Origin: Emticicia sp. C21
GTDB taxonomy: Bacteria; Bacteroidota; Bacteroidia; Cytophagales; Spirosomataceae
Length of the DNA stretch: 64,000 nucleotides
Reading direction: 5' to 3'
Assembly (NCBI RefSeq): GCF_003418935.1
Contig: NZ_QVMT01000003.1
Coordinates: 186,001 to 250,000, forward strand
The position numbers and the translations under genes were made by a program. Positions 534-51,773 of this stretch are shown here, one piece after another; position 1 is the stretch's first letter, and each line of letters opens with the position of its first letter. Under the pieces are notes generated by a model. The model was not told where the DNA came from. It saw only the letters and a list, made by a program, of their open reading frames with translations, and did no database searches.

Positions 534-683
534 CGTAGAGATGTAACGGTTCGCCGCGCGATGCATTACGTCTCCATTAGCCTGTGCGCATAAAAATGAT
601 TGTTTATGCTTTTGATTCAGTCATATAAACATATTTGTATGATTAGACAGTCCCTAGGAGACGTATCGCAATACGTCTCTACG
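534..683. repeat. Paired palindromic repeat, family D copy 1
   Basis: Left arm 534-573 has the outer palindrome GTAA/TGCATTACGTCT split by a 15-bp GC-rich insert (547-561). Right arm 657-683 is a related palindrome around GACGTATCGCAATACGTC. The pair fills the 310-bp gap between the DUF2911 gene and the M61 peptidase gene. Related pairs lie at 27973-28140 and 63126-63259. There is no coding content. Confidence 0.75.
547..561 (+). repeat. GC-rich 15-bp micro-insert, copy 1
   Basis: CGGTTCGCCGCGCGA lies between GTAA and TGCATTACG. Without it the flanks would form the uninterrupted palindrome around AATGCATT seen at 63126 and 63236. The same 15 bases recur in the same context at 27986-28000. 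Confidence 0.7.
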
Positions 684-727
684 AATGCATTCTTATATAT
701 TCAATAATCCTTTGCTTTTTCAGTCTA

Positions 728-758
728 TTTTATAGTCTCATACGATTTGGTAACTTTA
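728..758 (+). promoter_or_regulatory. Candidate Bacteroidota promoter for the M61 peptidase gene
   Basis: TTTT at 728-731, a 19-bp spacer, then TAACTTTA at 751-758. This fits the -33 TTTG / -7 TAnnTTTG pattern except for the last base. It lies 54 bp before the start codon. Confidence 0.4.
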
Positions 759-811
759 CACGTTTTTATGAACTAAGTGAGTTTTATTTATTACAAATTA
801 TATAATTATCT

Positions 812-2692
812 ATGAAAAAAATAGCATATATGCTTCTGACTATGGCCGTAATGACGGCTTGTACCAGAAAAGCATCTGTAAGTTCTTCAACCTCCACACA
901 AAAAGATAACCTCTATCAATTCTCTGTTGATTTGACCAAAGTTGAAAACGATAAATTAGAGGTGACTTTAGTTGCGCCGAAAATTAATACAGACCAGATA
1001 ACTTATTTCCTGCCTAAGATTGTACCGGGTACTTATGCCAATTATGATTTTGGCCGTTATGTATCAGATTTTAAGGCATTTAATGCGAAAGGAGAAGCAT
1101 TGCCTGTTGATAAAGCCGATGTTAATAGCTGGACTATCAGAAATGCTCAAAGTCTTAGCAAAATTACCTATAAAGTAGATGATACCTGGGATTCTCCGGA
1201 AATTAAAGGTGAGAAAATTTTTGAGCCAGCCGGAAGTGATATTGATGCCAATAAGAAATTTGCGATCAACACTTTCTGTTTCTTCGGCTATTTTGATGGT
1301 ATGAAAAAATTACCTTATCAGATTTCCTTCACCAAGCCTACAGGATTCTACGGAGCTACTTCAATGAACTTTGCTTCTACTACGGCAACCAGAGATGTAT
1401 TCGAAGCAGCTAATTACATGGATTTATCTGATGCGCCAATCCTTTATACGCAACCAGATACAACTGTGTTGAAAATCGGTGGTGCTGATATATTAGTCTC
1501 GGTATTTTCTCCTAACAAAGAGGCTAATTCTAAAGAAATCGCTGCCAATATCAATTCCCTGCTTAATGCACAGAAAGAATACCTGGGTGGTAAATTGCCT
1601 ATTCAAAAATATGCTTTCCTGATTGTATTATCTGATAATCCGAATCTGATGAGTTATGGCGCCTTAGAGCATTCATATTCATCATTCTACTATTTACCTG
1701 AGGGCACTTCTAAAGAGCTTTCGCAAACTGTGAAAGACGTGGCATCGCATGAATTTTTCCATATTGTTACGCCTTTAAGTATCCACTCAGAAGAAATAGG
1801 TGATTTTGATTACAATACACCTAAAATGTCGAAACACTTATGGTTATATGAGGGACTAACAGAATATGCTGCCGGACATATGCAGATTAAATATGGTTTG
1901 ATAGAGATGCCTCAGTATCTGGATATGTTGCGCCAGAAAATGACAACCATGAAGATGATGAACGATAAGCTACCATTTACTGAAATGAGCTTAGGGGTAT
2001 TAGATAAATATAAAAACCAATACATGAACGTGTATAACAAAGGTGCTTTGATAGGTTTGTGCTTAGACATTAAACTACGTCAACTATCAGATGGTAAAGC
2101 CGGTACGCAAACATTAATGCGTGAACTGGCAAAAACCTATGGTAAAACGCAGTCATTCAAAGACAATGAATTGTTTGCTAAGATTACTTCTTTGACTTAT
2201 CCTGAAATTGGTAATTTCTTTGATAAATATGTAGATGGCCCTGAGCCATTGCCATTGACTGAAACTTTGCAATTAGTGGGTATTGAATATTTACCGGAGG
2301 CTACTATTAAAAAAATCAGCTTAGGAGGTATCAGCTTAGGATTCAATGCGCAAACCAAACGTATTAAAATTGGTAATGTAAGCAAAATCAATGAGTTTGG
2401 TAAGAAAATGGGTTACCAGTTGAATGATGAAATCGTATCATTAAACGGACAGGCATTTGATGTTCAGAAAGCACAGCATATTCTGGATGAGTATAATAAC
2501 AATACCAAGGAGGGAGACGTGGTAACTATGGAAGTTGCCCGCAAAAACAGTGAAGGTAAAGAAGAAATTATTAAATTGTCTTCACCAGCAATGGTAGTTG
2601 ATGTAACCGAGAAAAACGTATTGAAACTGGTTGATAATCCGACTCCGGCACAATTAAAAGTAAGAAAAGACTGGTTAAGTACAGAAAAGTAA
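812..2692 (+). CDS. M61 family metallopeptidase, lipoprotein
   Basis: A zinc aminopeptidase of the M61 (glycyl aminopeptidase) family, 626 aa. The N-terminus is a lipoprotein signal with the lipobox ending MTAC (Cys17), so the mature protein should be membrane-anchored in the envelope. An all-beta N-terminal domain is followed by the catalytic domain with the zinc motif HEFFH at residues 313-317 and the third ligand Glu347 in WLYEGLTEY. Residues of about 495-610 look like a PDZ domain, the usual M61 arrangement. Length is normal for the family. It is a single gene with a probable promoter at 728-758 and a hairpin terminator at 2729-2757. Substrate is unknown, but peptide scavenging or envelope proteolysis is likely. 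Confidence 0.9.
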   Translation: MKKIAYMLLTMAVMTACTRKASVSSSTSTQKDNLYQFSVDLTKVENDKLEVTLVAPKINTDQITYFLPKIVPGTYANYDFGRYVSDFKAFNAKGEALPVDKADVNSWTIRNAQSLSKITYKVDDTWDSPEIKGEKIFEPAGSDIDANKKFAINTFCFFGYFDGMKKLPYQISFTKPTGFYGATSMNFASTTATRDVFEAANYMDLSDAPILYTQPDTTVLKIGGADILVSVFSPNKEANSKEIAANINSLLNAQKEYLGGKLPIQKYAFLIVLSDNPNLMSYGALEHSYSSFYYLPEGTSKELSQTVKDVASHEFFHIVTPLSIHSEEIGDFDYNTPKMSKHLWLYEGLTEYAAGHMQIKYGLIEMPQYLDMLRQKMTTMKMMNDKLPFTEMSLGVLDKYKNQYMNVYNKGALIGLCLDIKLRQLSDGKAGTQTLMRELAKTYGKTQSFKDNELFAKITSLTYPEIGNFFDKYVDGPEPLPLTETLQLVGIEYLPEATIKKISLGGISLGFNAQTKRIKIGNVSKINEFGKKMGYQLNDEIVSLNGQAFDVQKAQHILDEYNNNTKEGDVVTMEVARKNSEGKEEIIKLSSPAMVVDVTEKNVLKLVDNPTPAQLKVRKDWLSTEK

Positions 2693-2728
2693 TTCGTCCA
2701 TTCCAACCTTTTTAATCAATTGTCAGTC

Positions 2729-2762
2729 AAGGGTGTAAAAGCGATTTTACACCCTTGTTTAT
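2729..2762 (+). terminator. Rho-independent-type terminator after M61 gene
   Basis: Stem AAGGGTGTAAAA / TTTTACACCCTT with a 4-base loop (GCGA), followed by a T-rich tail. It is 36 bp past the stop codon. Confidence 0.75.
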
Positions 2763-2880
2763 TTATAGCATAATCTGGTCGAACTATTGGATTATATGAA
2801 GAATATCAGAGGGGTATAAAATTAAAATCGTCAGACACCGTTAATCATTTTTTGAATTTTGCCTTTACACCCCAAAGATT

Positions 2881-3573
2881 GTGAGTAAATTTTTTAAGAA
2901 AAGCCTCCTTTATTCCCTTATCGGAATAGCTGCTGTAGCCTGTACCAATGTAGTTCCTACGCCTGTTTATTTTGAATCTCCAAATAAGCAGTTAGCTGCC
3001 AGAGGAGGGGGTAAACCCTCTATAAAGCCTCTAGTTAAAAATGGTGATGACTTAGTAGTTCAGCCTGACACGCTGACAACAGAGGTAATAAAAAATGCAC
3101 AAGGTGAAGCAGGCGTGCATATCTTTGATTTTCGTGAGGTTACGCCACCGGATATTAATTTCGATTTCCCATCACATAGTGTTGTGATGATGCCCGTTAC
3201 TTATGTAGGTGTTGATAAGGGCGTAGCCAATAGTTTTTGTGAGTATTGGCTCTATACCAAATCGGGCGAATTGGTTTGCTATTGCAAAAACACTATAAGT
3301 GGTTTGCATCCGGTTTATGGGAATAGTTTTAATGCCAACAATCACCTGCCTGCATTTACGAAAAAGATTGGTTATGGAGAGTATAGACTAGTATATAAGA
3401 ATATCTCTTCAGCACCCGTAAAACAGGATTTGATTTTTGGCCTGATTGCCAATAACGGCAAAGACCAAATTAATACAAAAGTATTAAGTGGAGAAACCAA
3501 AGAGTATTGGATTACTATTTATCCTTCAACTAGTGAGTTTAAGATGAATAATAATAATAAGGAACCGATGTGA
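2881..3573 (+). CDS. Hypothetical lipoprotein
   Basis: 230 aa, GTG start; no better in-frame ATG lies upstream. The N-terminus is a clear lipoprotein signal with the lipobox ending AVAC (Cys21), preceded by two lysines and a hydrophobic stretch. The rest is beta-rich with alternating hydrophobic residues and ends in a basic, asparagine-rich tail. I do not recognise the family. It stands alone between a terminator on the left and repeat family B on the right. Export and lipid anchoring are supported, but function is unknown. Confidence 0.7.
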   Translation: MSKFFKKSLLYSLIGIAAVACTNVVPTPVYFESPNKQLAARGGGKPSIKPLVKNGDDLVVQPDTLTTEVIKNAQGEAGVHIFDFREVTPPDINFDFPSHSVVMMPVTYVGVDKGVANSFCEYWLYTKSGELVCYCKNTISGLHPVYGNSFNANNHLPAFTKKIGYGEYRLVYKNISSAPVKQDLIFGLIANNGKDQINTKVLSGETKEYWITIYPSTSEFKMNNNNKEPM

Positions 3574-3601
3574 GATAGGGACAAATTATAATGACGAATA
3601 T

Positions 3602-3750
3602 GTATCCCGTAGGGATGTTATATCGGTAGTAGAGCTATCCAAATAGATAATACGAGTCCCGTAGGGACGATATATTAATATACCGTCCCTACGGGACTCA
3701 ACTCTTAAACTTTTCTTATTTTCTACCGATATAGCATCCCTACGGGATAC
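3602..3750. repeat. Nested inverted repeat, family B copy 1
   Basis: Outer arms 3602-3629 and 3723-3750 are near-perfect reverse complements (ATCCCGTAGGGATG... against ...CATCCCTACGGGAT). Between them sits a separate 46-bp palindrome (3654-3699) built on AGTCCCGTAGGGACG and its complement. It lies between the convergent lipoprotein and hisC genes and could act as a two-way terminator. The same three-part layout recurs at 42777-42942. Confidence 0.85.
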
Positions 3751-3761
3751 ATCTCTATCTA

Positions 3762-4808
3762 CTAGTATGCTTTCAACGCCTCAACCAAAACTTCATTCTC
3801 GGCATCGGTTCCAATGGATATACGGATACAACCTTCGCATAACTGCACATTCGAACGGTCTCGGGTAATGATTTTTCTATCAATCAGGTATTTGAAAACA
3901 CCTTTGGCATCATCAAATTTTACTAATAGCTGATTAGAGTCTGTCGGATAAATATATTTCACTACAGATAAATTGCCTAAAAGATTAACCAGATTAGTAC
4001 GGGCTTTTAGAATCTCCTGCACATAGTTATTTTTCTTCTTTTCATTATCCAATGCCTCCAGAATCAAGGCTTGTGTAACGGCATTGAGGTTATAAGGATA
4101 TTTGATTTTATTCAGAATCTTAATCAAATCTTCCGAAGCAAAGGCCATTCCGAAACGGAGTGCTGCCAATCCCCATGCTTTTGAGAAAGTTTGTAATACT
4201 ACTAGGTTCGGATAAGTGTCTAATAGCTTCGTAAATGATTCTTCTTCTGTAAAATCAATATAGGCTTCATCAACAATGACTAAACCTGTTTTGAAATTAT
4301 CCAGAATGGCAATAACAGATTCCCGTTTGGCTAAATTGCCTGATGGGTTATTAGGCGAACAAACCCAAATGAGTTTAGTATGTTCATTAACAGCCGCTAA
4401 TAATTCATCAACCCGAATCTGAAAATCAGAGGTAAGCGATACCTGTATTACAGGGGTATTCTGAATATCAGCACATACTTTATACATGCCATAAGTGGGT
4501 GGCATCGTAATGATATTATCTTCTTTCGGCTCACAAGTAGCACGGATTAACAAGTCGATAGCCTCATCAGAACCATTTCCCAAAAAAATCTGTCCTGGGC
4601 GAACACTCTTAATAACGGCCAGTTTTTCTTTGATTTCAGCCTGATAGGGGTCTGGATAACGATTATAATTACCAGCGATAACAGCCCCGAATGGGTTTTC
4701 GTTGGCATCTAAAAAAATGCCTTCTTTTCCGGTATACTCATCACGAGCCGAAGCATAAGGTGTTAAGGTCAGGATATGAGGACGAATGATATTGTCTAGT
4801 GAGAACAT
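3762..4808 (-). CDS. hisC: Histidinol-phosphate aminotransferase
   Basis: A PLP-dependent class II aminotransferase that converts imidazole-acetol phosphate and glutamate to histidinol phosphate in histidine synthesis (cytosol). It is 348 aa, the usual HisC length. Visible features are DANENPFG near residue 35, SPNNPSG (Asn154), DEAY (Asp180) and the PLP lysine Lys210 in TFSKAWGLAALRFG. No other his gene is next to it; its neighbour on the same strand is an SDR gene separated by a repeat, so it is not in a his operon here. HisC-like enzymes can also act on aromatic amino acids, so the substrate call is by family resemblance. Confidence 0.9.
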   Translation of the reverse strand: MFSLDNIIRPHILTLTPYASARDEYTGKEGIFLDANENPFGAVIAGNYNRYPDPYQAEIKEKLAVIKSVRPGQIFLGNGSDEAIDLLIRATCEPKEDNIITMPPTYGMYKVCADIQNTPVIQVSLTSDFQIRVDELLAAVNEHTKLIWVCSPNNPSGNLAKRESVIAILDNFKTGLVIVDEAYIDFTEEESFTKLLDTYPNLVVLQTFSKAWGLAALRFGMAFASEDLIKILNKIKYPYNLNAVTQALILEALDNEKKKNNYVQEILKARTNLVNLLGNLSVVKYIYPTDSNQLLVKFDDAKGVFKYLIDRKIITRDRSNVQLCEGCIRISIGTDAENEVLVEALKAY

Positions 4809-4811
4809 GAG

Positions 4812-4948
4812 AATAATTGAGTGATTGAGTGATTGAGTGAATTAGTGATTTTATTCAATTGACTCTAAATGGGTGTTAGCTAAACTATTAATCACCGTAT
4901 GCGGCGACTAATCACTCATTCACTCAATCACTAATTCACTCATTAAAT
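4812..4948. repeat. Heptad-type inverted repeat pair, family A copy 1
   Basis: Left arm 4812-4850 and right arm 4907-4948 are made of 8-bp units such as ATTGAGTG and AATTAGTG in opposite orientation. A GC-rich micro-insert in minus orientation (TCGCCGCATACGG, 4895-4907) sits at the inner edge of the right arm. The pair separates hisC from the SDR gene. A single further arm of the same units lies at 5721-5758, upstream of the SDR gene. Confidence 0.75.
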
Positions 4949-5715
4949 TATTTCGGTGCCATCCTGATAGCTCCATCTAAACGAATTACTTCGCCGTTGA
5001 GCATGGTATTTTCTACGATGCTTTGGACTAATTGAGCATATTCATCCGGACGACCTAAACGTGGTGGAAATGGTACTTGTTGACCTAATGATTGTTGTGC
5101 TTCTTCCGGTAGGGAGGCCATTAGAGGTGTTTTGAAAATACCAGGTGCTATAGTCATTACTCTTATGCCGTTTCTTGATAAATCACGGGCTATGGGTAGC
5201 GTCATGGCTACAATACCACCTTTAGAGGCAGCATAGGCCGCTTGTCCGATTTGCCCGTCATAGGCTGCTACCGAGGCTGTATTGATAATAATGCCTCTTT
5301 CACCGTCTTCGTTCGGCGTATTGTTCGACATCTCAAAAGCTGCCAGACGAATCATATTAAATGAACCTACCAGATTGATATTGATAATCTTCTGAAAATG
5401 AGCCAGTGAATGAGGCCCCTCTTTGCCAACTGTGCGGGCAGGTGGTGCAATTCCGGCACAGTTAACCAGAATATGAATGGCCTGAAATCTGGCTAGTGCC
5501 TGATTCATGACATTTTGTGCATCCTGTTCAGAAGAGACGTCGCATTTCACGAATTCAGCTACCGTGCCTAATTCATCTGCTAATGCTTTGCCTTTTTCCT
5601 CGTTTACATCCACAATAATGGCATTAGCACCTGCTTTTACGAATCTTCTTACTACGGCTTCTCCTAATCCTGATGCCCCTCCTGTAACTATGGCTGTTAA
5701 TCCTTTTAGTTGCAT
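4948..5715 (-). CDS. SDR family 3-hydroxyacyl-CoA dehydrogenase-like oxidoreductase
   Basis: A 255-aa NAD-dependent short-chain dehydrogenase. It has the TGGASGLG cofactor loop at residues 11-18, Asp36 after the second strand (favours NAD over NADP), the NNAG-equivalent NCAG near 85-88, and the catalytic triad Ser148, Tyr161 and Lys165 (YAASK). The sequence style ([27 protein letters not shown]) resembles type 2 3-hydroxyacyl-CoA dehydrogenases of the HSD17B10 group, so a role in fatty-acid or branched-chain acyl oxidation is likely but not proven. The stop codon directly abuts repeat family A. Confidence 0.8.
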
Positions 5716-5833
5716 ATAATCATTGAATGATTGAGTGAATGTGTGATTTAGTGATTACTAAACATCAGTCAATATTTTACCTATCTCTACTAGATAAAAA
5801 AGAAATTTTCTATTAGTAGCTGTTTATTGTCGC

Positions 5834-5841: not shown

Positions 5842-5864
5842 TCACAAAATTTGAAAAGAATCTT

Positions 5865-6761: not shown

Positions 6762-6766
6762 TAGCC

Positions 6767-14213: not shown

Positions 14214-14633
14214 TAGCTATTAGAGTGCAAAAGTTTAGAGTACAATTGCTATTGAGTGGCCGCCACGCGGTGAGAAAAAATTACCAGAAAGTACCATTGC
14301 TATTAATTGAGATTGAAACAATTGCTATAAAGTAAAGAATCCCAAAAAGTACCCGCTGTTGAGTTTAGGTCCAAAAAGTTGATAATACAATTGCTATTGA
14401 AAAAATTAAGTCGTCCAAACTGCTGTTTCTAAAAGTTTAATGATGAGGTTGAATAGAAAGACAATTGCTATTGAGAGAATTTAACACTAAAAACAAACTG
14501 CTGTAATTTTATTTGAGAATTGAGTAAGAAGGATTTTAAAAGCACGTTGAGTACACCCAAAGAGTAGAAAGTAATTAAAAAAGAAAAGTGGAGTTGAAAA
14601 TCGACTCCACTTTTACTGACAATTGCTATTGAG
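14214..14633 (+). repeat. Degenerate direct-repeat cluster with core ACAATTGCTATTGAG
   Basis: Clear copies of the core start at 14242, 14318, 14387, 14461 and 14619 (spacings 76, 69, 74 and 158). Weaker related copies (GCTATTAGAG, ACCATTGCTATTAA, CCGCTGTTGAG, AACTGCTGTT) lie between them at about 14218, 14293, 14351, 14416 and 14503. The intervening DNA is also partly similar, so this looks like a decayed tandem array with a period near 70-76 bp, not a CRISPR with unique spacers. A GC-rich micro-insert interrupts the first unit. No protein-coding frame is apparent. Confidence 0.6.
14584..14614 (+). terminator. Terminator-like hairpin inside the repeat cluster
   Basis: Stem AAAAGTGGAGT / ACTCCACTTTT with a 9-base loop. 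It is a classic two-way terminator shape with no annotated gene in front of it, so it may end a non-coding transcript from the repeat cluster. Confidence 0.55.
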
Positions 14634-27972: not shown

Positions 27973-28140
27973 CGTAAAGACGTAACGGTTCGCCGCGCGA
28001 TGCATTACGTCTTCATAGGTATATCGAATCCAGAAAATGGTATTAGAGAGATAAAACAATTAAAACACTATCATTTAACCTCCTAGAGAGTTTGTCTGAT
28101 ATTCATAGGCCAATGAGAAGTAATGCATTACATCTCTATG
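27973..28140. repeat. Paired palindromic repeat, family D copy 2
   Basis: Left arm 27973-28012 has the AATGCATT-type palindrome interrupted by the 15-bp GC insert at 27986-28000. Right arm 28120-28140 is an uninterrupted short palindrome (GTAATGCATTAC). The pair occupies the gap between hemL and the Lrp-type regulator gene, both minus strand. Confidence 0.75.
27986..28000 (+). repeat. GC-rich 15-bp micro-insert, copy identical to 547-561
   Basis: CGGTTCGCCGCGCGA between GACGTAA and TGCATTACGTC. Removing it restores a perfect 18-bp palindrome. Confidence 0.75.
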
Positions 28141-36904: not shown

Positions 36905-37651
36905 ATGAAAACATTATTCACCCTATTTATTGCCATTTCCCTTACTATGGCAGCTTTCGCCCAAAAACAAGATACGCGCTATTATGAAATGCGCATCTAC
37001 TATTGCCACCCTGATAAATTACCCGATTTATTGACTCGTTTCCGTAACCACACTACCAAGATTTTCGAACGTCATGGCATGACAAACGTAGGTTACTGGG
37101 TACCCACTGATAATAAAGAGAATGCGCTTTACTATGTATTATCATACCCAAGCAAAGAAGCAAGAGCCGATTCGTGGAAAGCTTTTGGTGCTGACCCTGA
37201 ATGGAAAACCGTAGCTGCCGAATCGGAGAAAAATGGTAAAATTGTAGCCAAAGTAACATCCATATTCATGAATCTGGCAGATTTCTCTCCGGCAGTAAAA
37301 GCGCAAAAGAAAGACCCTGAACGCGTTTTTGAACTAAGAACCTATACTGCCAGTCCTGGCAAACTGGGTGATTTACAGACTCGTTTCCGTGACCATACCC
37401 TGAAACTTTTTAAGAAACATGGCATGGAAAACGTTGCTTACTGGACAACCATTGAGAAGGATACGACTCAGCCTAAATTAGTATATATTTTAGCTCATAA
37501 AAGCGAAGAGGCGGGTAAAGCTTCATTTGATGCATTCAGAAAAGATTTGAAATGGGTAAAAGCCCGTGATGAATCGGAGAAAAATGGTAAACTAACCGTA
37601 GAGGTAAAATCTATGTACATGAAACCAACCGATTTCTCTGAGATCAAATAA
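36905..37651 (+). CDS. NIPSNAP family exported protein with two domains
   Basis: 248 aa. A signal peptide (LFTLFIAISLTMAAFAQ) precedes two tandem NIPSNAP domains, each starting YEMRIYYCHPDKLPDLLTRF and FELRTYTASPGKLGDLQTRF, with internal NVGYW/NVAYW and PEW/LKW motifs (WKTVAAESEKNGKI; WVKARDESEKNGKL). This is a ferredoxin-like fold. Members in bacteria are often exported and of unknown role. It has a promoter-like box before it and a terminator after it. Confidence 0.9.
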   Translation: MKTLFTLFIAISLTMAAFAQKQDTRYYEMRIYYCHPDKLPDLLTRFRNHTTKIFERHGMTNVGYWVPTDNKENALYYVLSYPSKEARADSWKAFGADPEWKTVAAESEKNGKIVAKVTSIFMNLADFSPAVKAQKKDPERVFELRTYTASPGKLGDLQTRFRDHTLKLFKKHGMENVAYWTTIEKDTTQPKLVYILAHKSEEAGKASFDAFRKDLKWVKARDESEKNGKLTVEVKSMYMKPTDFSEIK

Positions 37652-38567: not shown

Positions 38568-40190
38568 CTACTTCTTCGCTGATTCTTCTTTTACAGTTGG
38601 ATACTTAATCCCTAATTGCTCTAAATACGTTTTATATTTAGTTGGGTCATAATAATACTTACTCATTTCAGGACGGAATTTCTCCATAATTTCTTTATTC
38701 AGCTGAATGGCAGGTTTATCATCTTTTGAAATCAATGGAGTATATTTAATTTCTTTAGTTTGATCTTTATTATAATAATCCCACGCTTTCTGAATGATTT
38801 CTGGCTTGAAAAGCATATCCAATACCGTCAATGCCTCTACTTTTGCTCCGGCTGTGCAGCCTTTATGCGCAATTGGTGTAGCCATCGTAATGGCATTGGC
38901 CCAGTGATGCCCCGGCATGCCCGGCATATTGGATGGATAACGAAGCACAACTGTAGGCAAAGACCATGAAATATCAGCAATATCATCAGAACCTCCCTGA
39001 CGGATAATGTTAGGTGAGTAAACAGGCTCGGCTATTGTATCTAATTTGACCGCCAAACCCTCTGCTTTGGGTGCCTGTAGTTCTTTCTGACTGGCTTTAG
39101 CCAATAACTGGTCTTCTTCTGACCATTTCGGCAAACCAATCCGTTTAATATTTGTATATACAGTTTCAGCAATAGGTTTGTTGAAATGCCCCGGCCAGGC
39201 ACTGCCTAATATTTCGTAAGTGAATTTGGTATCAGTCATAATCGACGCACCTTGTGCCATTTTAATTCCATTTTCAAATAGATTTTTGATTTTCGGATAG
39301 GTGCGTTCACGGAAATAATACCATACAGTAGCTTTTGAAGGCACGACATTGGGTTGATCACCTCCATCTGAAATCACATAGTGCGAGCGTTGCGTAGTTT
39401 CTAAGTGCTCCCGTTTATAGTTCCAGGCAATGTTCATTAACTCTACAGCATCCAGTGCGCTTCTGCCTCGCCAGGGTGCACCTGCCGCATGAGCTGCGGC
39501 ACCTTCGAAATGGAATTTTACAGATACTAATCCTGTATTTCCGGCATCACCCCATGATACACCCAGATTATCACCAACGTGGGTGAAGATGCAGGCATCG
39601 ACATCTTTAAAGTAACCATCACGTACATAAATGGCTTTTGCCCCAACCTGTTCTTCTGCAATACCCGGCCATAGCATTAAGGTGCCTGATATTTTTTCAC
39701 GCTCCATAATTTCCTTTAAGGCAAGCATAGCTGTGATATTCAGGGCTTGTCCAGAATTATGGCCTTCTCCATGCCCGGGAGCGCCTTCTACAATCGGGTC
39801 TTTGTAGGCTACACCGGGTTTCTGAGAAGCTTTCGGAATACAGTCTACGTCAGAACCAATGGCAATCACTGGTTTGCCTGAGCCCCATTTGGCTATCCAG
39901 GCTGTGGGCATTCCGGCAACGCCGCGTTCAATTGTAAAACCATTTTTCTCTAATAGATTAGTCAGATACTTAGTGGTTTCAAATTCCTGAAAACCTAATT
40001 CACCAAAGCTGAAAATCTGGTCGTTGACTTCTTGTGTGAATTTCTGGCGTTCATCAATTTTCCTGATGACTTCCTGTTTCAGTAATTCCAATTTGTCGGG
40101 TGCAGGATTAGATTCTTTTTTCTTTTTTTGAGAAAAAGCGATGCCACTGCTCAAAATTAATGTAAGAGCGAAGATGAAGTGTTTCTTCAT
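38568..40190 (-). CDS. Exported amidohydrolase of the M20/AbgB type
   Basis: 540 aa with a signal peptide (FIFALTLILSSGIAFSQ). The M20 fold is visible: VIAIGSDVDCIP, GHGEGHNSGQALNI (metal site), LWPGIAEEQVGAKAIYVRDG, the dimerisation part GAAAHAAGAPWRGRSALDAVELMN, and SDDIADISWSLP near the C-terminus. The closest type is p-aminobenzoyl-glutamate hydrolase subunit B and related aminoacylases. Exported location suggests use of external amides or peptides. It lies 22 bp after the next amidohydrolase gene on the same strand, so they are one operon. Confidence 0.88.
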   Translation of the reverse strand: MKKHFIFALTLILSSGIAFSQKKKKESNPAPDKLELLKQEVIRKIDERQKFTQEVNDQIFSFGELGFQEFETTKYLTNLLEKNGFTIERGVAGMPTAWIAKWGSGKPVIAIGSDVDCIPKASQKPGVAYKDPIVEGAPGHGEGHNSGQALNITAMLALKEIMEREKISGTLMLWPGIAEEQVGAKAIYVRDGYFKDVDACIFTHVGDNLGVSWGDAGNTGLVSVKFHFEGAAAHAAGAPWRGRSALDAVELMNIAWNYKREHLETTQRSHYVISDGGDQPNVVPSKATVWYYFRERTYPKIKNLFENGIKMAQGASIMTDTKFTYEILGSAWPGHFNKPIAETVYTNIKRIGLPKWSEEDQLLAKASQKELQAPKAEGLAVKLDTIAEPVYSPNIIRQGGSDDIADISWSLPTVVLRYPSNMPGMPGHHWANAITMATPIAHKGCTAGAKVEALTVLDMLFKPEIIQKAWDYYNKDQTKEIKYTPLISKDDKPAIQLNKEIMEKFRPEMSKYYYDPTKYKTYLEQLGIKYPTVKEESAKK

Positions 40191-41954: not shown

Positions 41955-41966
41955 TGGCCGCTGCGG
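41955..41966 (+). repeat. GC-rich micro-insert, short copy
   Basis: TGGCCGCTGCGG followed by TAACAG in an otherwise AT-rich 294-bp gap. No uninterrupted counterpart was found for this site. Confidence 0.5.
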
Positions 41967-42776: not shown

Positions 42777-42942
42777 ATCCCGTAGGGATGATATATTGGC
42801 GGCCGCCGTTGCGGTAGATAAATTTAATTCGATTAAAATTTAAGTCCCGTAGGGACGATATATTGAATCGATATATCGTCCCTACGGGACTTTTCTTGAG
42901 ATTGCGATAGGCATTTCTACCAATATATCATCCCTACGGGAT
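42777..42942. repeat. Nested inverted repeat, family B copy 2, with micro-insert
   Basis: Outer arms 42777-42817 and 42917-42942 match (ATCCCGTAGGGATGATATATTGG..TAG), with a 49-bp inner palindrome (42843-42891) built on AGTCCCGTAGGGACGATATAT. The left outer arm alone carries a 15-bp insert at 42800-42814, so the arms give a direct before/after comparison. Confidence 0.9.
42800..42814 (+). repeat. GC-rich 15-bp micro-insert
   Basis: CGGCCGCCGTTGCGG between ATATATTGG and TAG. The opposite arm (42917-42942) lacks it, so insertion or excision is directly visible, with a one-base ambiguity at the border. Confidence 0.85.
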
Positions 42943-45558: not shown

Positions 45559-46704
45559 ATGAAAAATATTTACTCTACTTTATTCTTACTATTTACACTT
45601 ATAACCGGCGCTTTTGCGCAATCAACGACAATTACTGCTGGCCAAACTGCAAACGTTCAATTACCTGTACTTAAAAACGAAGATATCACTGCAATCCAGT
45701 CTCCGAAAGCAGGTATGATGGTGTTTGACCAGACGTTTAGTGTTGTCAGAGTTTATAACGGCTCTACCTGGACTTGTATCGGCTGTAGCGAGCAAGTATA
45801 TTCTAGTGTGCAACTGGCAAGTGTCGAATCTTTCACACTTGGCAACACAAAAGTTGGTACCAACACCGTTTATACTGCTAATGGTTTAGGAACATTCAAG
45901 ATTAGTGATAACGGAATTGGTAATGTGAAACCAGTTTTAAGTAACGGGAACGGTAATGCACAACCCAACGGATTTCTGATGGATAATCAGGATGTTATCG
46001 TATTCGAAAGCACGCTTCCGTGGCAATTGCAGATTCTTCCGCAATTTGATTTGTTAAATATTATTAATAAATGTCAGTGGGTTAATCCTTATACGTATAC
46101 ACAGCCCGTTGATGTAATTACGAGTGCAGATTCTGTTAATCTTATTTATACGGTAAGAGAAGCAGGGAGTTTTGAGCGTAGAGAAAGTAATATTTTTGGT
46201 ATGAAAGCTTATCGTTTCAGAAACAAAGTATTCACAGAAAAATACGCACCCTTTAAAAGCTTTTTTGATAAGTTGATTACAGCTAATACATCGGTCGATT
46301 TGTATGCGGCCATGAATGTTAGTCCACAGGCTTATAATATTATCAGTACGTCTCCTTGGTTTGCTGTGAATGATGGTATTCTTACATTTCCCAGATCAGC
46401 TACGAAGCCACAGAGTAATTACGGGCTTATCTATTTCATAGCTAAGTCTAATAATCTGCCTAGCTTCCGCATGCGAATATTCACACATCGTCCAAGTAGA
46501 ACAAGCATTGACCAGTATTTTGATGCTAATGGCAACATTCGCAACCGCTCTAGCTATCTGGAGAATTACTATTATAATACCATGAATACTGATATGCCTG
46601 CCGCGTTGAATTTCTCAACAACGTCCCCTAAGTTAAGATTAGCGGGTGATCCTCCATCTAAAAAAGAAGTACCACCACCAACTGCAGGTACTGAAGATTT
46701 ATAG
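45559..46704 (+). CDS. Secreted surface-type protein of unknown function
   Basis: 381 aa from the ATG at 45559, which begins a good signal peptide (NIYSTLFLLFTLITGAFAQ); an earlier in-frame start would add 33 residues before it and hide it. Residues of about 36-75 (LPVLKNEDITAIQSPKAGMMVFDQTFSVVRVYNGSTWTCIG) have the 'GMxVFD...VYNGSxW' pattern common in Bacteroidota surface and fibre-like proteins. The rest is unrecognised and ends in a proline-rich tail. It precedes the CHAT gene by 43 bp and is probably co-transcribed with it, downstream of two predicted sigma-dependent promoters. Confidence 0.75.
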   Translation: MKNIYSTLFLLFTLITGAFAQSTTITAGQTANVQLPVLKNEDITAIQSPKAGMMVFDQTFSVVRVYNGSTWTCIGCSEQVYSSVQLASVESFTLGNTKVGTNTVYTANGLGTFKISDNGIGNVKPVLSNGNGNAQPNGFLMDNQDVIVFESTLPWQLQILPQFDLLNIINKCQWVNPYTYTQPVDVITSADSVNLIYTVREAGSFERRESNIFGMKAYRFRNKVFTEKYAPFKSFFDKLITANTSVDLYAAMNVSPQAYNIISTSPWFAVNDGILTFPRSATKPQSNYGLIYFIAKSNNLPSFRMRIFTHRPSRTSIDQYFDANGNIRNRSSYLENYYYNTMNTDMPAALNFSTTSPKLRLAGDPPSKKEVPPPTAGTEDL

Positions 46705-46747
46705 GGAAGGATTGAAAGGTATTTAGTCATAAAGCTAATGTTTTAAT

Positions 46748-49528
46748 ATGAGAAAAAGTCTTCTTATATCTCTTTTTGCTATACTTGTTTTGAACGCAAT
46801 GGCGCAGTCGAATGACATCACATTGCAGATAAATGCCATGAGAGATGAAGCTTACCGGAAGCTGAGTAACCATCAGATTACCACTGAACAAGCATTAAAA
46901 AGTTATAAGAATTTTCAGAAAAAACTTCTTGAAAAGAAGGATTATGATAATTACTATAATCTGTTCATGTTAGCAGCTGTAGATTTGTATATTCCGAACG
47001 ACGATTATGAAAACGCAGCAAAAGTAATTTCAGAGGGCCTTGATGCGTTAAAATATGTGAGTGGCGAGAAAAAAGACTTAATGTTCTTTGAGTTAAATGC
47101 AGAGATTTCGGAATATTACCGACGGATACCAAGTAAACTGAATCTGGCAGAAAAACACTTCAAAAAAGGCTACGATTTTTTCTTACAACATAAAGACCTT
47201 CAGAAAAAACTACCTGCTTTTGTTATTACTTTTCTAAGCAACTATGGCCGCTTGATAGATGACCTGGGCGATACCGAGCAAAGCTTCTATTATTTTCAGC
47301 AAGCCAGACAAATAGCCAAACAAGAGAAAATTACACTGAACCAATATGCGGTTTTGAGTAATATGGCCAAGTATTACCGTGAAAAGAAACAATACGAAAA
47401 TGCGTTAAGTTTTCTGAAAGAGGCGTTGCCATTATCTGCCGACGATGATAAAATAGCTATTGTTCATTTGTCGATAGGTCGTTGTTATAATCAGATGAAA
47501 CAACCTGCCGATGCTTTGAAAGCATTTGCAGAGGCAGAAAAATTCTATAGAAAGGCAGAAGAGTCTCAACCAAGACTCTGGATAAATATTCAGACCAACA
47601 GAGCCGAATCATATTTGCAGCTGGGAGATTTGGCTAAAGCCGAAGGTACTTATAAGAATGCACTGAAAGATTTTGCAAGTAGTTTCCATCATTTGCAGGG
47701 TATCCAGGTCGCTAAGATAGAGAATGGTTTAAGTGAGATTTACGAGAAAAAGGGTAATTTTAAAGAAGCACTGATACATAGCCAAAAAGCGATGATAGCA
47801 GCTGATACTTCCTATACTCAACTCAGCGTAAAATCTAATCCTACTTTTGAGGCCGTAAATGCTCCACAGGAATTATTCATTGCCCTGAACCAAAAAGCCG
47901 ACTTACTCTCAAGTTCTGACCCTGCTTTATCGGCTGATACCTATATTACGGCTATTAAGTTTGCTACACATCTGCGCAAGACTTTTGATATGCCAGAGTC
48001 GAAACTGTTTTATAGCGAAAAGGTATATCCTGTCTACGAAAAAGCCTTATCGAAGATATTTGAACAATGGAAAGCCAAACAGTCGCAAGAGTGGGCAGAG
48101 AAATTTTTCTATACTTTAGAGGCCAGCAAATCGGCTACTTTGTGGGATGCTGTGAAAGAACAAAAGATACGTCCGAAAGTGTTAGATGAAGATTTGTTAA
48201 TTCAGGAAGCGTCTTTACGCCAGAAGATTGTTAAGCTTCAAATCAGACTATTAGAAGCAGGCAACGAAAAAACGCTTTCTGATTTATCTGATGCTAAAAT
48301 ACAGTTAGGCCATCTGACCAAAAAAATCGAGCAGGAGTCAAAGAATTATTATAAACTAAAATATGATAATTACCTGATTTCACTGAAAGAAACACAACAA
48401 AAAATTGATAAAAGTTCGGCCTTTATTAGCTATTTTCTGGGTGAGAATGTATTGTATTACCTAGTGGTAGACAAAGAGTCGTATAATATTGTTAAGAAAG
48501 AGGATGCTTCTGCCATACACAATCTGGCGCTTAGCCTTTACGCCAAAATTAATACTCCTCCAAATATTGATGCTTACAAAGGACATGATCTGGCCAAGAA
48601 AACCTACGATGTTTTATTAGCACCAGTTGAGGGAATGTTGAAAAAATCTAAGAAACTGATTATTGCTCGTCATGATATTTTAGGCTTTTTGCCATTCGAG
48701 ATATTAGAGAAAAAAGGCAAATCAGACTATCTTTTGTTTGATTATACGATTTCTTATGCCAATTCGGCCTCCTTACAGTTTGATTACAACATTACCAAGC
48801 CACAGAGCGATATTATTGCCTATGCGCCATTCAGCAATGGTAAGCAATCGGGTATATTCAGAGATAAGGGTTTTAAGACCTTGCCTGCCTCTATCAATGA
48901 AATGGGAGAAATTAACGGTCAGATTTTTCAGGATAATAAAGCTACCAAACTGAATTTTCAGGAAACCTACCGGAACAAAGGAATCATTCATTTTGCCACA
49001 CACGCACAGGTAAACGATGCCGAACCTTTGAAGTCGTTTATCGCCTTATATCCTGAGGGAAAAGATTTTAAATTATATACGCCAGAACTCTATAACCTTT
49101 CGTTAGAAAATACCCAACTGGTAGTACTAAGTGCCTGTGAAACAGGTAAAGGACAAATCAGAAAAGGAGAGGGGATTATCAGTCTGGCAAGGGCCTTTCA
49201 GTTTGCGGGTTGCCCGTCAGTAATCACAACTTTATGGAATGCCCACGACGAAAGTATTGCCAAATTATCAGAGAAATTCTACTACTATCTGAAAAAAGGC
49301 CACCCTACCGATGAAGCCATCCGCTTATCAAAAATAGATTTGATTCAAACCGAATCAGATCATCCGTTCTATTGGTCGAACTTTGTATTGATTGGTAAAT
49401 CTTCGGTAATTCCGATTGCCTCCAATAATTTTATTTATCTGTGGTTAGGACTATTTGCAGCAGTTATGGTCGGCATGTATCTGTTCAGAGCCAGAATCGC
49501 TGCTTTTTTTTCTAATCTTTCAAGATAA
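46748..49528 (+). CDS. TPR-CHAT domain membrane protein (caspase-like)
   Basis: 926 aa. A signal-like N-terminus (SLLISLFAILVLNAMAQ) is followed by many TPR helices (about 60-370, e.g. AVLSNMAKYYREKKQYENALSFLKEAL), a long coiled region (about 470-540), then a C-terminal CHAT peptidase domain (about 590-885). The caspase-type dyad is His752 in IIHFATHAQV and Cys797 in VVLSACETGKG, followed by GEGIISLARAFQFAGCPSVITTLWNAHDE. A last transmembrane helix (about 890-912, IYLWLGLFAAVMVGMYLF) anchors it with the CHAT domain on the same side as the TPRs, probably the periplasm. CHAT proteins are cysteine proteases; some take part in cell-death or effector systems. The target here is unknown. Confidence 0.9.
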   Translation: MRKSLLISLFAILVLNAMAQSNDITLQINAMRDEAYRKLSNHQITTEQALKSYKNFQKKLLEKKDYDNYYNLFMLAAVDLYIPNDDYENAAKVISEGLDALKYVSGEKKDLMFFELNAEISEYYRRIPSKLNLAEKHFKKGYDFFLQHKDLQKKLPAFVITFLSNYGRLIDDLGDTEQSFYYFQQARQIAKQEKITLNQYAVLSNMAKYYREKKQYENALSFLKEALPLSADDDKIAIVHLSIGRCYNQMKQPADALKAFAEAEKFYRKAEESQPRLWINIQTNRAESYLQLGDLAKAEGTYKNALKDFASSFHHLQGIQVAKIENGLSEIYEKKGNFKEALIHSQKAMIAADTSYTQLSVKSNPTFEAVNAPQELFIALNQKADLLSSSDPALSADTYITAIKFATHLRKTFDMPESKLFYSEKVYPVYEKALSKIFEQWKAKQSQEWAEKFFYTLEASKSATLWDAVKEQKIRPKVLDEDLLIQEASLRQKIVKLQIRLLEAGNEKTLSDLSDAKIQLGHLTKKIEQESKNYYKLKYDNYLISLKETQQKIDKSSAFISYFLGENVLYYLVVDKESYNIVKKEDASAIHNLALSLYAKINTPPNIDAYKGHDLAKKTYDVLLAPVEGMLKKSKKLIIARHDILGFLPFEILEKKGKSDYLLFDYTISYANSASLQFDYNITKPQSDIIAYAPFSNGKQSGIFRDKGFKTLPASINEMGEINGQIFQDNKATKLNFQETYRNKGIIHFATHAQVNDAEPLKSFIALYPEGKDFKLYTPELYNLSLENTQLVVLSACETGKGQIRKGEGIISLARAFQFAGCPSVITTLWNAHDESIAKLSEKFYYYLKKGHPTDEAIRLSKIDLIQTESDHPFYWSNFVLIGKSSVIPIASNNFIYLWLGLFAAVMVGMYLFRARIAAFFSNLSR

Positions 49529-49641
49529 AATTACTTCTTACATTTTGGAACCCCATCGAAACCTTACATTTGTGATTGGTGTTATACCAGAATATGCTTA
49601 ATCGTGCGTTAAGGATAGACTAAAGAACAAATCACAACCTG

Positions 49642-50877
49642 ATGATTAGCTACGAGCATTTTACTTTGAAAAACGGCCTGGGGGTATATGTGCATGAAGA
49701 CCATACTACCCCGATGGCAGCCGTGAATATATTATATAATGTAGGGTCAAGAGACGAAGACGAGAAGAAAACGGGTTTTGCCCATCTTTTTGAGCACCTG
49801 ATGTTTGGTGGTTCAAAAAATATTCCGAGCTACGATGAACCTCTTCAAAAAGTTGGCGGAGAAAACAATGCCTTTACCTCGCCGGATATTACCAATTATT
49901 ATATTACGCTTCCGTCTAAAAATATCGAGACGGCTTTCTGGCTGGAATCAGACCGGATGATGAGTCTTTCATTTGATGATAAGGTCTTGGAAGTGCAACG
50001 CAAAGTAGTGATTGAAGAGTTTAAACAACGCTATCTGAATCAGCCTTATGGTGATGTGTGGTTGAAACTTCGCCCATTAGTATATGAGAAACACCCGTAT
50101 CGTTGGGCGACTATCGGTAAGGAAATCAGCCATATTGAAGAAGCTACAATGGATGATGTGAAAGGGTTTTTCTTCAAATATTATCTGCCTAATAATGCCA
50201 TATTGGTAGTAGCAGGTGATGTTACGGTGGCACAGGTAAAATATTTGTGCGAGAAATGGTTTGAGCCGATTCCGGCGGGTGAGAAGTATATCAGAAATCT
50301 GCCGCAAGAGACTTTACAGACCGAAGCTAAATTTCTGGAAACTTCGGCAAAAGTACCTTTAAATGGTATTTACAAGGCTTACCATATGCCGGGCCGCTTT
50401 GACCCAGAATTTTATAATGCCGATTTGCTAAGTGATCTGTTAGGTAGAGGGAAATCGTCAAGATTGTATACCAAACTCGTGAAAGAAAAGCAGTTGTTCA
50501 ATAATATTTCGGCTTATATCACTGCTTCACTTGACCCCGGGTTATTGATGGTTCAGGGCAATCTGAACGAGGGTGTGGCTTTAGAGGAGGCTGATGCGGC
50601 TATTGGAGAAATACTCAGCGAATTGATTGATAATAAAGTAGAAGAGTCAGAGTTACAAAAGGTAAAGAACCAGAGTGAATCCACTTTGGCCTTTGCAGAG
50701 GTTGAACTATTGAACAGAGCCATGAATCTGGCCTTTGCAGCTAATGCAGGCAATGCAGACTGGTGTAATCAGGATGCAGAGAAAATAGCTGCTGTAACAC
50801 CTGAATCATTACAGGTAATGGCGAAACATATATTAAGAAAAGAGAATAGCTCAACAATGTATTATCGGGCAAACTAG
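49642..50877 (+). CDS. M16 family zinc metallopeptidase
   Basis: 411 aa, the size of a single M16B subunit. The inverted zinc motif HLFEH is at residues 48-52 (GFAHLFEHLMFGGS), with the third ligand in VVIEEFKQRYLNQPYG (about 125-126). The R/Y pair of the C-terminal half is not clear by eye. No signal peptide is visible, so it is cytosolic or exported by another route. M16B enzymes often act in pairs; the partner is not adjacent here. It is monocistronic and followed by repeat family C. Confidence 0.92.
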   Translation: MISYEHFTLKNGLGVYVHEDHTTPMAAVNILYNVGSRDEDEKKTGFAHLFEHLMFGGSKNIPSYDEPLQKVGGENNAFTSPDITNYYITLPSKNIETAFWLESDRMMSLSFDDKVLEVQRKVVIEEFKQRYLNQPYGDVWLKLRPLVYEKHPYRWATIGKEISHIEEATMDDVKGFFFKYYLPNNAILVVAGDVTVAQVKYLCEKWFEPIPAGEKYIRNLPQETLQTEAKFLETSAKVPLNGIYKAYHMPGRFDPEFYNADLLSDLLGRGKSSRLYTKLVKEKQLFNNISAYITASLDPGLLMVQGNLNEGVALEEADAAIGEILSELIDNKVEESELQKVKNQSESTLAFAEVELLNRAMNLAFAANAGNADWCNQDAEKIAAVTPESLQVMAKHILRKENSSTMYYRAN

Positions 50878-50881
50878 GGTC

Positions 50882-51076
50882 TGCGTGGCACGCCTATACT
50901 CGGACTCAAAAGGGCGTGTCACGCTTATTTCCTGGGAGGTCTCGGATAATTAGAGAGTGTAAAAACAAATTAGTTTGAAAGACTATATTGCCTGATTGAT
51001 AATTCACAAAGCGCCTAAGCGTGCCACCCGCGGCGGCGGCCGGGCCTTTCTCGGACGAGTATAGCCGTGCCACGCT
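50882..51076. repeat. Inverted repeat pair, family C copy 2
   Basis: Left element 50882-50927 (GCGTGGCACGCCTATACTCGG..GGGCGTGTCACGC) and right element 51016-51076 are inverted copies about 90 bp apart. The right element has a 16-bp GC insert (51028-51043) between GTGCCAC and GCCTTT, which the left element lacks. It lies between the convergent M16 and IscA-type genes. Confidence 0.75.
51028..51043 (-). repeat. GC-rich 16-bp micro-insert, minus orientation
   Basis: On the minus strand it reads CCGGCCGCCGCCGCGG. The left partner (50882-50927) is uninterrupted at the matching position. Confidence 0.75.
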
Positions 51077-51091
51077 GGTCAATGAAAACAA

Positions 51092-51125
51092 AATAGCCAC
51101 GCTTTATTATAAAAGCGTGGCTATT
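51092..51125 (-). terminator. Terminator of the IscA-type gene
   Basis: Stem AATAGCCACGCTTT / AAAAGCGTGGCTATT with a 5-base loop, 20 bp beyond the stop, with T-rich tail on the minus strand. Confidence 0.75.
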
Positions 51126-51144
51126 CATATGTATTCTAAGAGTA

Positions 51145-51471
51145 TCAGACTGCGAAACTTTCTCCACAACCACAAGTACGGGTTGCATTAGGATTTTTAA
51201 ACTGGAATCCTTTTCCGTTCAAGCCATCTGAGAAGTCTAATTCAGTACCAATCAGATATAAAAGGCTTTTCTTGTCTACAAAAACTTTGATTCCGTTGTC
51301 TTCAAAAATATGGTCGTTTGGACGCGTCTCAAAATCAAATTTCAAATCATACATCAAGCCCGAACAACCACCGCCTTCAACTGCTACGCGCACGCCATGC
51401 TCACCTGTTAAGCCATCCTTTTCTCTTAATTCAATGATTTTATTCTTTGCTATTTCTGTTACTGTTACCAT
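51145..51471 (-). CDS. Iron-sulfur cluster assembly accessory protein (IscA/HesB family)
   Basis: 108 aa from the ATG at 51471, the normal start of the family (MVTVTEIAKNKIIEL); a longer in-frame start at 51519 adds an unrelated tail. The three ligand cysteines are present: Cys36 in GGGCSGLMYDLKF and Cys100 and Cys102 in TRTCGCGESF. It acts as an A-type carrier in Fe-S cluster transfer in the cytosol. It is not next to a suf or isc operon here. Confidence 0.95.
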   Translation of the reverse strand: MVTVTEIAKNKIIELREKDGLTGEHGVRVAVEGGGCSGLMYDLKFDFETRPNDHIFEDNGIKVFVDKKSLLYLIGTELDFSDGLNGKGFQFKNPNATRTCGCGESFAV

Positions 51472-51584
51472 GACCTTAATTATAATTATTTGTATGCTGA
51501 TATGAAAACGTCGTTCCAAGCCGAAAAGTTTCGCAAATAGTCAATTATGTAAATGGGTTGAATAGTTTTGCAGTTTTTTGAAGT

Positions 51585-51773
51585 AATTGAGCGGCCCGCC
51601 GCTGCGGTGAATTAGTGATTTAGTGAATGAGTGATTAGATTCAATTTTTTTTTCAACCATCGCTTTTAATTGTGCTTAGTGTATTTGTTTAGCTATATTT
51701 AGTATAAGGTATTTTACCGTTAATCACTCATTCACTAAATCACTAATTCACCGCAGCGGCGGGCCGCTCAATT
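51585..51773. repeat. Perfect 53-bp inverted repeat, family A copy 3, with two micro-inserts
   Basis: Arms 51585-51637 and 51721-51773 are exact reverse complements with an 83-bp centre. Each arm consists of heptad units plus the 16-bp GC insert (51592-51607 and 51751-51766). Family A arms elsewhere lack the insert (e.g. ATTGAGTGAATTAGTG at 4827-4842). It separates the IscA-type gene and the GT39 gene and fills this 306-bp gap. Confidence 0.9.
51592..51607 (+). repeat. GC-rich 16-bp micro-insert
   Basis: CGGCCCGCCGCTGCGG between ATTGAG and TGAATTAG. A second, reverse-complement copy lies at 51751-51766 in the mirror arm. Confidence 0.8.

Follow-up and report, generated by a model that had tools for sequence, protein, structure and literature searches.

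A family of 15-16-letter hairpins that appears to insert cleanly and repeatedly into repeats, jumping genes and tRNA genes of one environmental bacterial family

A hairpin of 15-16 letters appears to have been inserted cleanly and repeatedly into repeats, jumping genes and tRNA genes of one environmental family. With a probability of about 0.82, we consider these hairpins, most of them 15-16 nt long, to be members of one family of non-coding mobile micro-elements that are mobilised in trans. A sequence-only reading of the window, the 64,000-nucleotide stretch of Emticicia sp. C21 analysed here, had described the element from nine sites; that observation holds in the main and reaches far beyond the window, but it was confirmed only in part at the nine sites themselves.

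Results

The canonical form, CGGCCGCCGCTGCGG, was found as an exact 15-mer in 231 copies distributed over 69 of the 222 genomes of the window's family, compared with 4 for the reversed control. The full-genome search that the sequence-only reading had proposed returned 29 matches with up to 2 mismatches in the window's genome, and 1 for the reversed pattern. Subfamily 2 has 28 copies in the 222 genomes (3 for its reversed control) and subfamily 3 has 37 copies in 11 genomes (0 reversed). These copy numbers, together with the filled and empty pairs described below, support the proposed nested micro-element with corrections: it is present in this Bacteroidota genome, but it is not confined to it, being family-wide and made up of several subfamilies united by the hairpin.

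At least three subfamilies share one plan, a CGG(T) leader, a 4-bp stem and a CGC(N) loop, and the CGG leader is kept across subfamilies except for CGA in one. The stems CCGC/GCGG, CCGT/ACGG, TCGC/GCGA and TCGT/ACGA fold alike, with paired changes that keep the pairing, and in this nearly palindromic element the loop is among the parts that vary. Length is 15-16 nt in the exact subfamilies and 12-16 nt when the window variants are included, the 12-nt short form having a stem of 3 bp. Folding scores of six variants against shuffles gave z values of -2.2 to -0.2, most of them unremarkable because the sequences are so short. Since the canonical form is 15 nt long and none of its six frames contains a stop codon, it leaves reading frames open. 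Head-to-tail tandem copies also exist. A scan of 1.02 Mb for leader, stem and loop hairpins gave a small excess of non-canonical tetraloop contexts (20 versus 5-14 in six permuted controls) and no excess of non-canonical triloops (6 contexts versus 7-10 in four controls), so most non-canonical forms in the scan list are probably due to chance. The window's genome has nine exact copies, of which none resembles a single master locus; octamer arrays contain seven, a palindrome holds the eighth and a 29-nt compound insert the ninth.

The nine sites of the window are as follows.

547..561, plus strand: subfamily 3 insert CGGTTCGCCGCGCGA at GTAA|TGCATTAC, in palindrome family A
4895..4907, minus strand: 13-nt variant TCGCCGCATACGG at TTAG|TGA, in an arm of an octamer array
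14257..14270, plus strand: 14-nt TGGCCGCCACGCGG; genome G001 carries a different 14-nt stretch in its place
27986..28000, plus strand: subfamily 3 insert CGGTTCGCCGCGCGA at GTAA|TGCATTAC, with an uninterrupted arm near 28110
41955..41966, plus strand: 12-nt short form TGGCCGCTGCGG at TAG|TAAC; orthologous site cleanly empty in G001
42800..42814, plus strand: subfamily 1 insert CGGCCGCCGTTGCGG, with a loop change only, in the CCCGTAGGGA palindrome element
51028..51043, minus strand: CCGGCCGCCGCCGCGG in the GTGGCACG palindrome; C, not G, precedes the 15-mer
51592..51607, plus strand: 16-nt variant CGGCCCGCCGCTGCGG in the left arm of an inverted octamer-array element, target TTGAG|TGA; G001 site empty
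51751..51766, minus strand: 16-nt variant CGGCCCGCCGCTGCGG, right arm of the 51592 element; empty in G001

All nine blocks are GC-rich and intergenic with respect to the listed ORFs (80 aa or longer), as first described, but only 4 of them match CGGCCGCCGCTGCGG within 3 mismatches; shuffles gave a mean of 0.23 such sites, and 0 of 100 reached the observed number. The nine occurrences are present, but they amount to fewer independent cases, since a single 46-bp repeat accounts for both 547 and 27986 (two copies, 93%) and 51592 and 51751 are both arms of one element with an identical 16-bp variant. The second arm at 547 is a related palindrome without insert. Comparison with congeners gave cleanly empty orthologous sites in G001 for 41955, 51592 and 51751, that is, for three of the nine. 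Relatives have no recognisable counterpart of the palindrome at 547, 27986 and 42800, the CCCGTAGGGA element of the latter being missing from G001, G008 and G002. The entire octamer-array element of 51592/51751 is absent from G008, and the ortholog of 51028 in that genome is filled by CGG plus the stem TCGT/ACGA, i.e. with two paired changes. The insert that had been claimed in a unit of the 14.2-kb cluster, at 14257, is not supported as an insertion, given the G001 sequence.

Filled and empty copies of the same site were found in IS256-type transposase genes, in IS3-type transposase genes and in a tRNA-Lys cluster. In aligned pairs the insertion is precise, all target bases are retained and the orientation of the insert is constant relative to the target. 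No target duplication of more than 1 base was seen in these pairs (window orthologs and transposase copies), and the 1-base direct repeat may reflect a 1-bp target duplication or pre-existing identity alike. Filled copies did not form one clade in either transposase set, some tree supports being low: filled L324 pairs with empty L325 (76%, versus 65-67% to other filled copies), filled L427 pairs with empty L430 (87%), and filled L426 pairs with empty L435 and L431 (82% and 80%, versus 76% to filled L428). This scattering in both sets indicates that the same nucleotide was probably entered more than once, and short gene conversion may be behind any single case of recurrence. The 15-mer is unchanged between transposase copies with flanks of only about 70-80% identity. 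In copies of one palindrome either subfamily 1 or subfamily 3 is present, or both together at two sites separated by 8 bp (a comparison from which control viral loci L327-L422 were excluded). Within a strain series, no case of transposition was observed.

The base before the insert is mostly the same as the insert's last base, and T usually comes next after the insert. Position -1 is G in 81 of 89 distinct cores of subfamily 1 and in 25 of 26 sites of subfamily 2, and A in 29 of 32 sites of subfamily 3, with 8, 1 and 3 exceptions, respectively; subfamilies ending in G thus enter mostly at G|T and the one ending in A mostly at A|T. Viral loci L094-L132, L061 and L173 are excluded from the site counts. 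The profile of the 89 cores, which retain exact matches resembling natural coding sequence in which -1 is not G (e.g. L072, L087, L191), shows a strong -1 G, a strong +1 T and a weak -2 A, and these cores have neither GTAG nor CGTC as a fixed tag beside the insert. Exceptions in the GTGGCACG palindrome are C before an insert with final G (window 51028, L018, L021) and G before one with final A (G008). The site ATTGAG/TGA, to which a preference had been attributed, survives as one common case of a more general target, mostly R|T.

The host contexts are unrelated and comprise several transposase families, tRNA-Lys, 7-mer arrays, 8-mer arrays and several palindromes. Open frames run through the insert in transposase genes, for which empty counterparts exist, and apparently in a few other genes. 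Because transposase genes (in frame) and tRNA genes also harbour the element, the suggested preference for repeat DNA stands as a bias but not as a requirement. Arrays of at least three heptamers account for 30 of 136 distinct sites, 29 of the 30 from genus g21, and 27 of these arrays have 1-2 units upstream of the insert; the mean upstream share (0.246) was lower than in all 20000 uniform placements, with arrays taken as independent. Such polarity was not present in the octamer arrays (12 sites). In genera g2 and g48 one long palindrome context recurs, covering 18 of the 135 distinct sites, and many copies share longer flanks, having moved with their host repeat. The 135 sites are the flank-profile total, without duplicates and sites with incomplete 20+20 flanks; L327-L422 were kept for this palindrome count, the heptamer placement test and the octamer check. 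A hidden tRNA at L019 around GGTCCGCCGCTGCGG was considered, and ARAGORN called none with the insert present or removed. Viral spread was also discarded: a 17-mer gave 39 stretches in viral contigs versus 96 for its reversed control, and as the real pattern is the rarer one, the viral matches are attributed to chance in GC-rich phages.

Y1_Tnp genes (Pfam PF01797) were present in 16 of 17 panel genomes, and the 15-mer, with up to 2 mismatches allowed, was absent from all 30 Y1 loci examined, a subset of the matches drawn from element-bearing and element-free genomes alike. G158 has 20 copies of the element but just one Y1 match, a weak one, whereas 8-10 Y1 matches occur in G003, G005 and G006, which have zero exact canonical 15-mers; a Y1/RAYT mobiliser was rejected for lack of association with the element in these 17 genomes and 30 loci. 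RVT_1 (PF00078) had no match in G201, G204, G096 and G241, which hold 25, 15, 12 and 8 copies, and a reverse transcriptase of this type was rejected as mobiliser since it is missing from some of the genomes richest in copies. Neither an enzyme that mobilises the element nor a donor locus came to light.

Discussion

In the reading that we favour, a putative trans-acting enzyme would insert or copy the hairpin in single-stranded form, be it RNA or DNA. Entry would take place at a nicked or single-stranded R|T step through one base of identity between target and element, and copies would also spread passively in the IS elements, palindromes and tandem arrays that harbour them. It is also conceivable, though rather unlikely, that a chromosomal enzyme of the family uses a short template to write an invariant sequence of 14-15 nt into R|T steps. 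The nicked 3' end of the target would then pair by its last base with the template start, and the template end would repeat that base. Such writing would explain the rule for position -1, the G|T or A|T targets of the subfamilies and the head-to-tail tandems, and fold-back copying would account for the paired stem changes; if true, this would be a telomerase-like or template-carrying sequence writer, not a classical transposon. Templated writing by RVT_1 is contradicted by the absence of this gene where the element is abundant (G201, G204, G096, G241).

Mobility of the element itself has to be weighed against simpler histories. The 15-mer could be immobile and have spread with a few repeats and IS elements by transposition, gene conversion and array expansion, as suggested by the single palindrome context of the g2 and g48 sites, by identical IS copies that carry it and by the common 16-nt variant of the 51592/51751 arms. 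We regard this as improbable, because the contexts are unrelated, from transposase families and tRNA-Lys to 7- and 8-mer arrays and palindromes, filled transposase copies do not form a single clade, the 15-mer is unchanged between diverged transposase flanks, and clean empty orthologs were found. The near-palindromic form with its variable loop would also suit a fixed scar of a larger transposon with CCGC/GCGG-type ends, after it left or lost its interior, but the transposase copies that were compared had no larger insert at the positions in question, and the retained leader and the tandem copies make such an origin very unlikely.

Mobilisation by a RAYT (Y1 transposase), as for a REP-like element, would agree with a short GC-rich hairpin in many copies with a duplication of at most 1 base, and with the wide presence of Y1_Tnp genes; the 0 of 30 Y1 loci with the 15-mer, Y1 numbers that do not follow copy numbers and the lack of a fixed GTAG/CGTC tag render it highly improbable. 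That ordinary GC-rich hairpin parts, e.g. of terminators, were matched by chance is scarcely credible. Five of the nine window sites are far from the consensus, the insertion at 14257 is unsupported and viral contigs show no excess, but chance is contradicted by the reversed controls in the family genomes and by the filled and empty pairs.

The small dispersed repeats (SDR) that Elhai et al. are said to have described in 2008 in Nostoc-type cyanobacteria are reportedly 21-27 nt long, share a hairpin with compensatory changes, lie nested in heptamer arrays and mini-elements, and are limited to one related group of cyanobacteria. By description, not by sequence, our element is alike in its tiny size, common hairpin with compensatory changes, heptamer arrays, nesting and occurrence in one related group, whereas it is shorter (15-16 versus 21-27 nt), belongs to Bacteroidota and has a last base|T target rule, in-frame copies in transposase genes and tRNA copies. 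Judged by this analogy, it works like the cyanobacterial SDR, but is smaller. Single-strand transposition of the IS200/IS605 type involves hairpin ends, no target duplication and a fixed orientation at a short target, and its members either encode a Y1 transposase in cis or have a full-length relative. The element shares the hairpin, the lack of target duplication and the fixed orientation, but no transposase or full-length parent with the 15-mer was found at the 30 Y1 loci. MITEs have terminal inverted repeats and a target duplication of at least 2 bp, whereas our filled and empty pairs show at most a 1-base repeat.

REP/REPIN sequences with RAYT, as presented in two papers (PMC3116915, PMC3733652), are likewise short palindromic repeats with many copies and no gene of their own. 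The element is shorter, has no GTAG/CGTC tag and no copy at 30 Y1 loci, and it is not restricted to extragenic DNA but also lies in coding DNA, where open frames of transposase genes run through it. Yeast mitochondrial GC clusters, according to another paper (PMC4478555), are GC-rich hairpins in AT-rich DNA with AG target nucleotides and changes concentrated in the loop, their amplification mechanism being open. These likenesses in hairpin, target nucleotides and loop changes are accompanied by differences, the yeast clusters being 42 nt long (GC42), organellar and associated with a putative target-site duplication. Titles and abstract openings in a literature covering few subscription journals contained nothing on this element, and the 15-mer string was matched there by a human HSPB8 paper alone.

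At 15 bp, the element would be one of the smallest DNA units for which repeated, site-specific insertion is well supported. Its last-base and target rule, together with subfamilies of differing specificity, makes the mechanism testable. Five-codon inserts in transposases and interrupted tRNA copies call for caution, as they may stem from the element. Bacteroidota would be the second phylum after cyanobacteria with such very small mobile hairpins, which could therefore be a general phenomenon.

Insertion of the micro-insert

The sequence-only reading had proposed a nested micro-element from nine GC-rich blocks lying between genes (547 to 51766). All nine are present and intergenic in the window (G000:C23:186001-250000), but the proposed consensus held for only part of them: four lie within 3 mismatches (0.23 expected) and the remaining five lie beyond that limit. 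The genome-wide search it had called for returned 29 matches with up to 2 mismatches in the 6.64 Mb genome, versus 1 with the reversed pattern, the same pattern spelled backwards.

The 15-mer family is inserted DNA. In a tRNA cluster of genome G034 (locus L054), two tRNA-Lys genes are intact and three further copies are interrupted by the 15-mer, which separates the T stem from TTCGAAT; once the insert was removed by script, ARAGORN called two of the three interrupted copies tRNA-Lys, and the total rose from 3 to 5. In Mutator/IS256-type transposases of genomes G002 and G008, alignment of copies with the insert (filled) to copies without it (empty) leaves a gap of exactly 15 nt at sites resembling TTG followed by TATAAA, and IS3-type integrase-core genes of genus g50 have filled and empty copies, the insert lying between codons and between TGG and TAYAA. 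Window 41955 reads AATCTAG, 12 nt, TAACAG, and its ortholog in G001 reads AATGTAGTAACTG. The inserts at window 51592 and 51751 are missing in G001, which retains the octamer arrays, and the orthologous place in G008 lacks the entire array element. This element (window 51588-51770, ~180 bp) is built from a pair of inverted octamer arrays that flank an AT-rich loop; it occurs in G001 and is missing in G008, and therefore the arrays themselves are an indel unit.

In trees built from flanks only, filled copies are interspersed with empty ones, which suggests that the same place was probably entered more than once. Filled L324 groups with empty L325 in the IS256-type tree; in the IS3-type tree filled L427 groups with empty L430, and filled L426 is nearest to empty L435 and L431. 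Some supports in the trees are low. Gene conversion of a short tract may account for any single mixed case.

Hairpin structure and target

The canonical 15-mer (subfamily 1) begins with a CGG leader and then folds into a hairpin whose 4-bp stem (CCGC/GCGG) closes the loop CGCT, and a 12-nt short form has a 3-bp stem. The stem is kept through paired changes in subfamilies 2 and 3, which are sequence variants on the same plan, and in the G008 ortholog of window 51028 (TCGT/ACGA). Folding energies were not exceptional against shuffled sequences. For subfamily 2, 13 of 222 genomes carry 28 copies between them, against 3 for the control. Subfamily 3, whose fourth loop base is variable or missing, counts 37 copies in 9 of the 11 genus genomes (control 0), including all four without an exact canonical 15-mer (G003, G005, G006 and G007). 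One palindrome family carries, at neighbouring sites, subfamily 3 alone (L488), subfamily 1 alone (L242) or both (L241).

The 182 site instances in the retrieved loci comprise 135 that differ in their 20+20 flanks; counted by 6+6 cores, 89 are distinct. In subfamily 1 the base directly before the insert is G in 81 of these 89 cores. It is mostly G in subfamily 2 (CGACCGTCGCTACGG; 25 of 26 sites) as well, and subfamily 3 (CGGTTCGCCGC(N)GCGA) has A at 29 of its 32 sites; the preceding base is therefore mostly the insert's own last base, across three subfamilies and two target types. The base directly after is T in 75% of the 89 subfamily 1 cores. Exceptions are the remaining sites of the three sets and the GTGGCACG palindromes, with C before the final G at window 51028, L018 and L021, and G before the final A in G008. 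This one-base identity may be a 1-bp target duplication. However, the final base is constant, G in 118 of 118 exact cores of subfamily 1 and A in 32 of 32 of subfamily 3 (counts partly conditioned by retrieval through exact match), which argues for a target chosen by the element and not for free duplication of a resident base.

Direct head-to-tail copies occur in subfamilies 2 and 3 (L463, L484, L501). At L478, L484, L487, L501 and L505, 16-nt subfamily 3 units run head to tail with a changing loop base, some units being strongly diverged. A paralog of the 41955 site (L003/L263, G000:C1 near 828029) has a 29-nt insert between TAG and TAA, made of the 14-nt CGAGGACACCCAGT and then the 15-mer; it is perhaps a compound of two micro-elements. 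At G000:C1:850415-850438 (L011/L012), two opposed 15-mer-like copies overlap into a 24-bp palindrome within a larger one.

Sequence contexts

Contexts of the 135 distinct sites (automatic sorting)
Heptamer arrays: 30
Octamer arrays: 13
Three palindrome types: 18, 6 and 5
IS3/IS256 genes: 7
tRNA-Lys: 2
Other: 54 (a class in which transposases, palindromes and heptamer-like sites remain, along with some coding matches that arose by chance)

Among the heptamer arrays, 29 of 30 come from genus g21 (G201, G202, G204; L183-L231; units TTTTGAG, TTTGGAG and TTGTTAG). In 27 of the 30 arrays one or two units precede the 15-mer, and as many as 26 units lie downstream; this strong polarity was not seen in octamer arrays.

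Ten open frames across the insert were compared with Pfam, and eight match transposase-type families, six above cut-off (Mutator, integrase core, IS1, DDE and two IS4/5) and two weakly (L048, L164). The other two match a TonB-dependent receptor and a molybdopterin oxidoreductase with reductase domain. Filled/empty alignment covers the Mutator and integrase-core cases among these. As read from the sequence, none of the six frames of the 15-mer contains a stop codon, and thus the insert keeps the frame.

Sequence matching the repeat region at 42.8 kb of the window recurs every 201 bases at 3, 204, 405, 606 and 807 of G008:C88 and at 38895, 39096, 39297 and 39498 of G008:C48, which suggests a 201-bp tandem repeat. 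Window 37220-37639 holds a repeated 69-bp stretch (74% identity) within one open reading frame.

Distribution

Of 222 family genomes, 69 carry the exact 15-mer, in 231 copies altogether, against 4 for the reversed control (summed over the per-genome table); copy numbers range from zero in some genera to 25 in one genome. A 17-mer with flanking G and T is present in 3 of 395 genomes of the phylum sample: the window's genome, G186 (same family) and G419 (other family, same class), where it lies inside GC-rich sequence. G051, of the same order outside the family, has three exact 15-mers, one between GCGGAG and TCGAA; with up to 1 mismatch its 10 matches nearly equal the 7 of the reversed control. 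A 22-letter pattern matched 7 contigs in a collection of 84,980 species that may leave out the window's own genome (Emticicia 3, from two species; Telluribacter 2; Streptomyces 1; MAG 1). Viral contigs showed no excess of the pattern over control. By these counts, the micro-insert is near-confined to this family and patchy within it. The family of our searches (f1) includes Emticicia and Telluribacter, both Spirosomataceae in GTDB; in the NCBI taxonomy Telluribacter likewise belongs to Spirosomataceae but Emticicia to Leadbetterellaceae. The Telluribacter loci L063/L064 share their flanks with L209/L186 (G241).

Discussion

The micro-insert lacks defining features of REP/RAYT elements and of MITEs, and works like the small dispersed repeats of cyanobacteria. 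It also resembles the GC clusters of yeast mitochondria, for which PMC4478555 reports AG target nucleotides and discusses both DNA and RNA routes. In a 17-genome panel, neither Y1 transposases nor RVT_1 tracked copy number.

Here, we demonstrated that insertion is precise, oriented and subject to a one-base rule, and it is apparently recurrent. The size and structure of the micro-insert, its paired changes and the absence of target duplication point to mobilisation by a trans-acting enzyme, for which the intermediate would be a single-stranded hairpin.
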